A DNA stretch of 64,000 bases, taken from contig NZ_CALPDB010000001.1 in assembly GCF_943193155.1 (NCBI RefSeq), positions 434,001-498,000 of the forward strand, given 5' to 3'. The notes beneath the pieces were generated by a model that was not told the origin of the DNA, did not search any database, and worked only from the letters and a program-made list of their open reading frames with translations. This DNA is from Veillonella intestinalis. Its GTDB lineage: Bacteria > Bacillota > Negativicutes > Veillonellales > Veillonellaceae. Position numbers and translations under genes: made by a program. Below are positions 4,622 through 7,440 of the stretch, one piece after another; the stretch's first letter is position 1, and the number at the start of each line of letters is the position of its first letter.

Positions 4622-5443
4622 TTAATTGCCAGACCATTCTGTTGGCATATCTGCAGGTGCATCTGTTTTAAACCATTTTTGATAAATAGCATTTAATTCA
4701 CCATCTTGTTTCATGTCAGCAATGGCTTTATTTACAGCAGCTTGTAATTCTTTATTATCTTTAGCAAAAGCAAAACCGAAATATTCTTTAGTATTAGGAT
4801 ATGGAATTACTTTTACATCTTCATTAGTGTGTTTAGATGCATAGTATTGAGCTACTGGTAAATCTAACACAGCAGCATCAACACTGCCTTTATTTAATTC
4901 TAATAAAGCATCACTACTGTGGTCAAACTGTTTTAATGTAGTATTCGCAATTTTGGCCGCTAAATCAGCGCCGGTAGTCCCCATTTGAACAGAAATATTT
5001 TTACCTTCTAAATCTTGTAGTGTATTAATATTCGAAGATCCTTTAACCACTACAGCCATACCAGATTCATAGTATGGAGAAGCAAACAATACTTTACCTG
5101 CTCTTGCTTTGGTGATTGTCATACCAGAAGCAGCCATATCAATGTCTTTATTACCTAGACTAGGAATCAAAGCATCAAAGGATACATTTTTAAATTCCAC
5201 ATCTGCATTCATTCTTTTTGCAATAGCTTTAACCATCTCAATGTCAAAGCCTGTCAAATCCTGTGATTTTTCATCTTTAAATTCAAATGGCACGAAAGTA
5301 GCATTAGTCCCAACTTTAATTACTTTTTTGCCATTGTCAGCTTGTGTGCTTGCTGTATCACTACCACAACCTGCTACTAAAGCCCCCATGGCCAAAACTG
5401 CCATACCGGTAATCATAAGTTTCTTCATCTTCTGTGTAAACAT
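4622..5443 (-). CDS. Amino-acid ABC transporter substrate-binding lipoprotein (SBP family 3), copy 1
   Basis: A 273-residue binding protein with signal peptide and lipobox LVAGC (Cys at about residue 26). Family motifs: IKVGTNATFVPFEF, GFDIEMVKAIAKRM, MAASGMTITKARAGKVLFASPYY and QMGTTGADLA. It delivers an amino acid to the permease/ATPase pair. The start MFTQKMKK has an AGGAG site 8 bases upstream. It is the first gene of the locus and lies behind a promoter embedded in a large palindrome (5519-5554), so its expression is probably repressor-controlled. The ligand is unknown. Confidence 0.93.
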   Translation of the reverse strand: MFTQKMKKLMITGMAVLAMGALVAGCGSDTASTQADNGKKVIKVGTNATFVPFEFKDEKSQDLTGFDIEMVKAIAKRMNADVEFKNVSFDALIPSLGNKDIDMAASGMTITKARAGKVLFASPYYESGMAVVVKGSSNINTLQDLEGKNISVQMGTTGADLAAKIANTTLKQFDHSSDALLELNKGSVDAAVLDLPVAQYYASKHTNEDVKVIPYPNTKEYFGFAFAKDNKELQAAVNKAIADMKQDGELNAIYQKWFKTDAPADMPTEWSGN

Positions 5444-5518
5444 AACTCCATCTCCTACTCTTTACTGTATAATAATAAGTTCAAACTCTCTCTTTATCTG
5501 AGTTTCTCTAATTGGTAT

Positions 5519-5554
5519 GACATGATTATACATAACAATGTATAATCATGTCAA
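5519..5554 (-). promoter_or_regulatory. Promoter within a 15-bp-arm palindrome (probable operator) upstream of the binding-protein gene
   Basis: On minus: TTGACA (5549-5554), 18-bp spacer, TATAAT (5525-5530). The same bases form a perfect inverted repeat (GACATGATTATACAT, 4-nt gap, ATGTATAATCATGTC; 5519-5552). Both promoter hexamers lie inside the arms, so a dimeric repressor bound here would block RNA polymerase. Confidence 0.75.
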
Positions 5555-5589
5555 TAGGTAAATGAATAAAAATTCAGAAAAATTTGCAT

Positions 5590-5822
5590 AAAAATAAAAG
5601 ACAGCTAAAAAGCTGTCTTTTATATACGGCTGACCTGGTCTTTGCCCCCACACTCGCCTACTGGAAGGTTCGCTCCTAAGCCTCTCGCTCCCCACTACTA
5701 CTTCTCTCGATTTTATCGGTAGGTCTTACATCTAAGCCGCACCATGCTCATAATGTCGTTGCATTACTTACGTGGATCGTTTTGCCTGCGACTGGCCTCG
5801 ACTTTCAACCACAGACCCGTAT
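5590..5822 (-). ncRNA. Free-standing structured RNA, about 230 nt; family not identified (6S-like candidate)
   Basis: No open frame, but a complete transcription unit: strong promoter (5829-5857), predicted start at 5822, terminator at 5596-5621. The predicted ends pair: AUACGG with CCGUAU, then CUG/CAG and UGGU/ACCA. Inner hairpins include GUAAUG/CAUUAU, CGAU/AUCG and a CUUA/UAAG stem. The region is richer in G and C than its flanks. A rod closed by its own ends is typical of 6S RNA, but I cannot recognise a 6S consensus. T-box, lysine, SAM, TPP and cobalamin riboswitch, tmRNA, SRP and RNase P signatures were looked for and not seen. The next gene has its own promoter, so this looks like an independent sRNA rather than a leader. 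Confidence 0.65.
5596..5621 (-). terminator. Intrinsic terminator of the structured RNA
   Basis: Perfect stem AAAAGACAGCT / AGCTGTCTTTT with an AAAA loop; on minus the stem runs into TTTTATTTTTA. Confidence 0.88.
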
Positions 5823-5828
5823 GAAGAA

Positions 5829-5857
5829 ATTATACGCAAAGAATTTTACTTTGTCTA
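5829..5857 (-). promoter_or_regulatory. Strong promoter of the structured RNA
   Basis: TAGACA (5852-5857), 17-bp spacer, TATAAT (5829-5834) on minus; start predicted about 7 bases on, at the A of AUACGG (5822). Confidence 0.75.
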
Positions 5858-6092
5858 TACAAAAATTATATGACAAATTTATATTTTACACTTGCTACTT
5901 TCGTTAGTTAAAGGATTCAATCTTTATAAAGCCCTTGTTCAGTGTATTCTCTTTTAGTTTCTCAAAATCCTTTCATCTTTGCCATAACTAACTATACTTA
6001 GATAGCAACATAGACCTATACCCAAAAGTGCAATAATATTGTATAATGTGTTTACTTGTTAAATGGGGACACAAAGGGAAGGACTCAGTATT
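5858..6092. other. Divergent intergenic region before the HD-GYP gene
   Basis: AT-rich, no open frame seen. A TATAAT (6042-6047) preceded by TTG may be an extended -10 for the plus-strand gene; no matching -35 is convincing. Confidence 0.4.
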
Positions 6093-6695
6093 ATGTTTAT
6101 GTTATCTTTAATGCAGCCATCAGGCTTATATGAATTGGAGCAAGATAGCTTAGAAGCCATTAGCGCCCAATTACTTCAGATGATTCGCATGAAAAGCTAT
6201 GAGCTTTATACACATTCCATCAATGTAGCCAATTATTCTGTCAGTATTGCCGCTAAACTAGGGCTACCAGCCAACGAAATAGAACAAATTAGACATGGTG
6301 CATTACTGCATGACGTGGGATTACTTATGATGCCTTCTACAGTTTTAAAAAAAGCACCATTCTTCAATCGGCAAGAAATGTCTAAATATCGTCAACATCC
6401 TGCGAATGGGGCAAACATGATTGAAAACTATCCATGTTGCCAACCAATAATTCCTTATATTCGCTATCACCATGAACGTTGGGATGGTTCTGGTTTTCCA
6501 AAACATCTTTGCGGTAGTAATATTCCATTGGGGGCCCGTATTATTGGTATAGCTGATTATTATGACTCTGCAATCAATCCATCTACAGAGTCCTGGTCTA
6601 AAAGTAAGAAAACAGCGAAGCAAGAATTATTCAGCGGATCTGGCATCTATTTCGATCCTGATTTAGTTAAAGCTTTCATTGAAATTATCGGTTAA
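6093..6695 (+). CDS. HD-GYP-like HDc domain protein
   Basis: About 200 residues, the only plus-strand gene in the left half besides rpsT. It is a metal-dependent phosphohydrolase of the HD superfamily. The HD pair is in HGALLHDVG. The diagnostic C-terminal block is HHERWDGSGFP...IPLGARIIGIAD, which is the HD-GYP motif with Phe in place of Tyr. HD-GYP proteins degrade cyclic di-GMP; whether this short stand-alone form does is an inference. The start at 6093 has a GGGAAGG site 10 bases upstream; an ATG 10 codons earlier has none. No receiver or GGDEF domain is attached. Confidence 0.85.
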   Translation: MFMLSLMQPSGLYELEQDSLEAISAQLLQMIRMKSYELYTHSINVANYSVSIAAKLGLPANEIEQIRHGALLHDVGLLMMPSTVLKKAPFFNRQEMSKYRQHPANGANMIENYPCCQPIIPYIRYHHERWDGSGFPKHLCGSNIPLGARIIGIADYYDSAINPSTESWSKSKKTAKQELFSGSGIYFDPDLVKAFIEIIG

Positions 6696-6731: not shown

Positions 6732-6761
6732 AAGCAGTCTACAAAAGTAGACTGCTTTTTT
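6732..6761. terminator. Bidirectional terminator between the HD-GYP and comF-like genes
   Basis: Perfect 11-bp stem AAGCAGTCTAC / GTAGACTGCTT with an AAAA loop and a T6 run on plus. It touches the stop codon of the opposing gene, so it can serve both converging transcripts. Confidence 0.88.
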
Positions 6762-7440
6762 AATGCCCCCCTGCTAAGGCTAGTCCCATAACTTCTGCCG
6801 CCCCATATTCAGTCACTAATATTTTAGCAGCGGCTTCTAAGGTAGCACCTGTTGTAAATATATCATCAACTATCATTATTCGTTTATCTTTTAAACACTT
6901 TGATTTTTCTACCTCTGGTATAGCTGTAAAAGCATGTTTCATATTTTCATGGCGCTCAGTTCGCCCTAAAGAAAACATAGCCTGTGTAGAATCTACTTTA
7001 TGTAAAGCCTCTAACCATTGCCAATGACATGGCGGCTTTGTTATTTGTTTAGACACTGCCTGAACCCATTTCTTAAATAATATATCCACTTGATTATATC
7101 CTCTTATTCGGCGCTTAGAGTCACTAACAGGTATAGGCACTACATAATCAGCAGTCAATATGTCCTCATCTAAGGCAAGCATAAATGAATACAAAAAAGG
7201 AGCGGCCCCTATGGCTCGCTCCTTTTTTCCTTGAAACTTTATATCTCGTAATATACTTTTAAGACCCTTATCATAATGTCCTATTACATATGCATACGCC
7301 AAATCCTCTCCAGCGAGATCTGTAACTTTACGAACATCATATAATTCTTCAAAACAAATTTTACACCACTCACCCTCATGCCACACATCTACACCACAAC
7401 TAGGACAAGTTGGTGGATATAAAAAATCACGCCACTGCAC
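6760..7440 (-). CDS. comF: ComF family phosphoribosyltransferase-like protein
   Basis: 226 residues. N-terminal zinc-binding pairs (CPSC...CKIC, about residues 14-32) are followed by a type I phosphoribosyltransferase fold with the PRPP-binding motif IMIVDDIFTTGAT near residue 190. ComF proteins are needed for uptake of single-stranded DNA in naturally competent bacteria. It begins directly after the recD2 stop codon, so the two are co-transcribed; aroK, recD2 and comF form one operon closed by the terminator at 6732. No other com genes are in the window. Confidence 0.88.
   Translation of the reverse strand: MQWRDFLYPPTCPSCGVDVWHEGEWCKICFEELYDVRKVTDLAGEDLAYAYVIGHYDKGLKSILRDIKFQGKKERAIGAAPFLYSFMLALDEDILTADYVVPIPVSDSKRRIRGYNQVDILFKKWVQAVSKQITKPPCHWQWLEALHKVDSTQAMFSLGRTERHENMKHAFTAIPEVEKSKCLKDKRIMIVDDIFTTGATLEAAAKILVTEYGAAEVMGLALAGGH

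Follow-up and report, generated by a model that had tools for sequence, protein, structure and literature searches.

The raiA motif, also described as ModT, is a family of structured noncoding RNAs. The raiA RNA of C. acetobutylicum has a compact double-pseudoknot fold that was solved by cryo-EM (PMC11751092). In C. difficile, ModT is a very abundant trans-acting RNA; when it is lost, c-di-GMP rises through DccA and sporulation is impaired (PMC11706538). The usual neighbors of raiA RNAs are comFC, binding-protein genes, and raiA (PMC11477304). The window analyzed here, meaning the whole stretch of 64,000 nt, encodes a Veillonella RNA that has helices P1 and P3-P8 and both pseudoknots in common with the RNAs of C. 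acetobutylicum and C. difficile. It also shares with the clostridial loci comFC, a binding-protein gene, the raiA gene, and a promoter and terminator of its own. What sets it apart from the clostridial systems is a divergent HD-GYP-like gene alongside; unlike C. difficile, the Veillonella host has no Spo0A, GGDEF, EAL, or PilZ. The RNA family and the genomic locus are already known, and the family is expected in this host. The locus is ordinary because its context of comFC, periplasmic binding protein, and raiA gene is as described for the family. Taken as a whole, it is highly probable that this is a free-standing, trans-acting raiA RNA with the cryo-EM fold, and that it functions beside or upstream of the clostridial pathways.

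Family membership and fold

Comparison with Rfam covariance models (cmscan) placed a raiA motif/ModT RNA (RF03072) at 5621-5825 on the minus strand, complete over model positions 1-209. The score was 196.2 bits against a gathering score of 101.3 (E = 2.6e-52), and this was the sole match above gathering score in the whole window. An earlier note on this DNA had described a structured RNA of unknown family in which no known class could be recognized; the significant full-length match resolves its identity. The structured RNA at 5825-5621 is almost certainly the raiA motif (ModT) noncoding RNA of Veillonella. The note's first candidate, 6S RNA (which binds RNA polymerase as a long hairpin resembling an open promoter), has negligible probability, since the likeness is confined to a similar length and a closing end helix, cmscan listed no RF00013 match at the site up to E 1 where the raiA model scores 196 bits, and the covarying structure consists of two pseudoknots and several side domains rather than a single long bulged hairpin. 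Matches to mir-5882, SpF10, RefA9, STnc50, and IS128 at the site were far below their gathering scores and were set aside as chance (palindrome, terminator).

RF03072 is present as one copy in 59 of 60 relatives of the order, covering 13 of 13 genera, and in 0 of 14 control genomes. Veillonella parvula SKV38 is among the carriers of the RNA. A search of viral contigs found no raiA RNA with the conserved 5' motif. The HD-GYP-like protein encoded next to the RNA has 100% identity to a protein of Veillonella sp. R32 and 96-97% identity to proteins of V. seminalis and V. ratti, so the window belongs to a Veillonella from this group.

The cryo-EM topology (PMC11751092) was written out as P1a-c, P3a-b, P4-P8, pk1, and pk2 over an alignment of 58 sequences, of which 54 are distinct, with about 80% mean identity. 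In the 54 distinct sequences, 98.2% of cells were paired, compared to 32-43% when the topology was slid by 1-3 columns, and 24 pairs had changes on both sides. The covariation score was 0.328, compared to 0.03-0.06 for the slid controls. P4 and P8b are invariant in the alignment and so are uninformative on pairing. In P3b, pair 31-41 changes from C-G to U-A and G-C. Unpaired residues of the RNA are also very highly conserved.

Both pseudoknots are visible in these changes. Pseudoknot 1 joins the P3 loop (RNA nt 33-39; 5787-5793, minus strand) to the pk loop (RNA nt 85-91; 5735-5741, minus strand), with 96.6% of cells paired and one pair changing on both sides. Pseudoknot 2 joins the pk loop (RNA nt 82-83; 5743-5744, minus strand) to J4-1c (RNA nt 182-183; 5643-5644, minus strand), with 98.1% of cells paired and both pairs changing on both sides (U82-A183 to C-G and G83-C182 to A-U). 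Compensatory changes, which the earlier note had proposed looking for, thus extend to both pseudoknots, and the interior is indeed more branched than that of 6S RNA, as the earlier note had supposed. The residue numbering of the cryo-EM study (G20, A28, A33, A43-A46, A57, A58, U82, G84; PMC11751092) fits the first 90 nt of the Veillonella RNA with no offset.

The nested Rfam topology also covaries as a whole, and most of its helices are common to the cryo-EM topology. It was rejected at the pairs that distinguish it, which break (C52-G83 in 15 of 54 sequences and 29-175 in 26 of 54); the alternative pairs of the cryo-EM topology covary. Because the cryo-EM pairs covary and the pairs specific to Rfam fail, the Veillonella RNA very probably folds as the clostridial RNA does. 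The Rfam nested consensus of RF03072 does not include the pseudoknots or the P3/P4 seen by cryo-EM.

Transcription unit and neighboring genes

The whole unit of promoter, structured RNA, and terminator occupies 5857-5594 on the minus strand. The promoter (TAGACA-N17-TATAAT, 5829-5857, minus strand) has 11 of 12 consensus matches. Its -10 box ends at 5829, and a start approximately 7 nt downstream falls near 5822, which is the A of AUACGG. That motif is the 5' strand of P1a (5817-5822, minus strand); it pairs with the 3' strand CCGUAU (5624-5629, minus strand), and the helix has several compensatory changes. An intrinsic terminator with a 13-bp stem and a U tail follows at 5594-5623 on the minus strand. 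These positions bear out the earlier note, which had placed the promoter exactly there, had paired the same two ends, and had put the terminator at 5596-5621. Its description of a noncoding island also holds, with zero ORFs of at least 60 aa in 5502-6062. The minus strand folds at -71.3 kcal/mol, compared to -60.1 kcal/mol for dinucleotide shuffles (z = -2.7).

This arrangement is constant in the family. Among 28 Veillonellaceae genomes, a promoter with 11 of 12 matches lies directly 5' of the RNA in 28, and the terminator is kept directly 3' of it in 28. The downstream transporter gene has a separate promoter at 5554-5525 (12 of 12 matches). Since the RNA has a promoter and terminator to itself and the transporter gene a separate promoter, the RNA is free-standing. 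It would be transcribed from its own sigma-70 type promoter, beginning with the first base of P1 near 5822, and the transcript, predicted to be about 210-235 nt long, would end at the intrinsic terminator near 5594. Our literature search found no record of a Veillonella raiA RNA transcript. A perfect 16-bp inverted repeat, TGACATGATTATACAT-TGTT-ATGTATAATCATGTCA, lies at 5518-5553 of the window and overlaps the promoter of the binding-protein gene; its right arm alone is kept in close relatives.

The neighbors are those the earlier note had named, an HD-GYP gene on one side and an amino-acid transport operon on the other. The first gene of that operon encodes a periplasmic amino-acid-binding protein (4622-5443, minus strand). 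The raiA gene lies on the same strand as the RNA approximately 5.7 kb downstream, just outside the window (C1:433685-433954). A gene for a comFC-like phosphoribosyltransferase with DZR_2 and Pribosyltran domains is at 6760-7440 on the minus strand. Between it and the RNA, the HD-GYP-like (HD_5) gene at 6063-6695 on the plus strand is divergent from the RNA and is the sole gene of its kind in the genome. Among the Veillonellaceae, 27 of 28 genomes have it next to the RNA, as do all 4 genomes of a sister family (f3). The usual HD-GYP motif is HDxGK. The Veillonella protein keeps the HD and HHE residues and has leucine at the position of the lysine.

Relation to c-di-GMP and sporulation

Regulation of c-di-GMP and sporulation, as by C. 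difficile ModT, is another reading of the Veillonella RNA. Membership of the same RNA family and the deletion phenotype (PMC11706538) favor it, as does the divergent position of the genome's only HD-GYP-like gene. Against it, Pfam profiles found no GGDEF, EAL, or PilZ domains in the genome, which is 99.96% complete (a highly diverged cyclase would escape these profiles), and Spo0A is present in 0 of 60 relatives of the order. GGDEF matches occur in 13 of the 60 relatives; the 28 Veillonellaceae have one, which is 52 positions long. Across the phylum, 32 of 348 genomes have a raiA RNA above cut-off and 10 of the 32 lack GGDEF, an overlap read by eye from two listings of genomes that are not phylogenetically independent. 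Families f14 and f112, in which Spo0A is retained, have members among the carriers without GGDEF. Four carriers in the phylum survey lack Spo0A, and all are within the order of Veillonella. This reading is therefore very improbable for Veillonella.

Because neither Spo0A nor GGDEF is encoded, the Veillonella raiA RNA would not act through Spo0A or GGDEF-made c-di-GMP. The core function of the family is very likely independent of c-di-GMP and sporulation, and the conserved job of the RNA should lie upstream of, or beside, the Spo0A and c-di-GMP pathways. Some link to a nucleotide signal may nonetheless exist, as the HD-GYP-like neighbor keeps its HD and HHE motifs. It is unusual to find a phosphodiesterase-like gene where no cyclase is encoded.

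Cis-like arrangements and mode of action

T-box leaders (RF00230) have a fold unrelated to that of raiA RNA; they are absent from the Veillonella window and follow the raiA RNA in two sister families (f2 and f3). No terminator lies directly 3' of the raiA RNA in any of the 15 loci of these families. In 14 of the 15, a T-box leader begins on the same strand some 10-50 nt past the end of the RNA (L002, L004, L015, L031, L058, L059, L062, L063, L066, L068, L069, L072, L075, and L080), the fifteenth locus not having been scanned at low threshold. Where tested, the gene after the T-box is cysS in f2 and cysE in f3, and the gene following cysE in f3 is cysS-like by its start. Read by eye, the f2 T-box appears to be transcribed from the raiA RNA promoter, and f3 has a separate promoter-like site between the raiA RNA and the T-box.

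A short form of the motif occurs in two other families of Bacillota. In families f38 and f85 (L088-L107), the phylum search gave ten raiA matches that are 113-120 nt long and score 42-59 bits, all below the Rfam cut-off. Their alignments keep P1, P3, and the pk1 strands and lack P6-P8 (P4 and P5 were read by eye). In all ten, the start codon of a treble-clef gene, whose protein opens MAFQDK (PF13451), comes 44-48 nt after the inner end of P1's 3' strand. An apparent amino-acid transporter operon, judged by sequence start only, follows that gene in eight of the ten loci. Pairing between the P1 3' strand and the start-codon region could give a helix of 8-9 bp at every one of the ten loci, with 88 of 90 cells paired and one pair changing from G-C to A-U between f38 and f85. 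This helix is contained in the predicted minimum-energy fold of each short leader, and its energy is better than that of every, or almost every, shuffled sequence and alternative window of the gene. The short variant has the layout of a cis-acting translational switch in two families. In such a switch, the P1 3' strand would pair alternately with the P1 5' strand or with the start codon. No earlier description of a short cis-like variant was found in the literature searched, outside of which are Soares et al. 2024 (PNAS) and Weinberg et al. 2017 (NAR).

Full-length raiA RNAs precede the same treble-clef gene in families f6, f24, f30, and f108. The distance from RNA end to gene is nearly constant at 33-38 nt over 13 loci (L113, L115, L117, L118, L120, L121, L123-L126, L128, L130, and L131). 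A GAGGG ribosome-binding site is conserved between RNA and gene, and there is no terminator. Where tested in these full-length RNAs, the start-codon helix was mostly no better than in shuffled sequences or other windows; the exception was a set of three genomes from the same genus. Because the helix of the full-length RNAs is mostly at chance level, the switch reading applies only to the short variant.

For the Veillonella RNA itself, a cis-acting riboswitch of the downstream amino-acid transporter is improbable. Rfam types RF03072 as 'Cis-reg; riboswitch', the binding-protein gene follows the RNA on its strand, and the short variant resembles a cis element. However, the RNA ends at its own terminator (5623-5594), the transporter gene starts from its own promoter (5554-5525), and no expression platform joins them. 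The spacing from RNA end to gene is 178 nt here, against about 250-340 nt in those relatives that were inspected, and the clostridial RNA complements in trans (PMC11706538). The separate terminator, together with experiments in two clostridia, suggests a stable and abundant RNA, and action in trans is likely in Veillonella.

The functional steps proposed here rest on clostridial work. A trans-acting ribozyme, serving for instance in the maturation of tRNA or rRNA, is the main rival to binding. Earlier authors proposed catalysis (PMC11751092, PMC11706538), and the very high conservation of unpaired residues and the compact, rigid fold agree with it. Catalytic activity is unreported in the literature examined, and a position ahead of a start codon, as in the short variant, would be more fitting for a sensor than for an enzyme. 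We consider a ribozyme unlikely and, with moderate confidence, infer that the raiA RNA binds a ligand or a protein. Most likely it would be a ligand- or protein-binding RNA that aids exit from exponential growth. A broader and rather doubtful proposal is that the raiA core is a ligand sensor, that the short core of f38 and f85 is a translational switch, and that the Veillonella RNA is a trans relative that responds to that ligand and is unconnected to c-di-GMP and sporulation.

The value of the present finding is comparative. Since the Veillonella genome has no Spo0A, GGDEF, EAL, or PilZ, the c-di-GMP and sporulation route of C. difficile would not be the conserved job of the RNA. Veillonella may be a clean organism for study of the conserved function because the RNA is nearly universal there and the recorded mechanism cannot operate. 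If the proposed reading of the short leader-type raiA elements is true, they would offer a testable cis assay or reporter for the ligand of the whole family.
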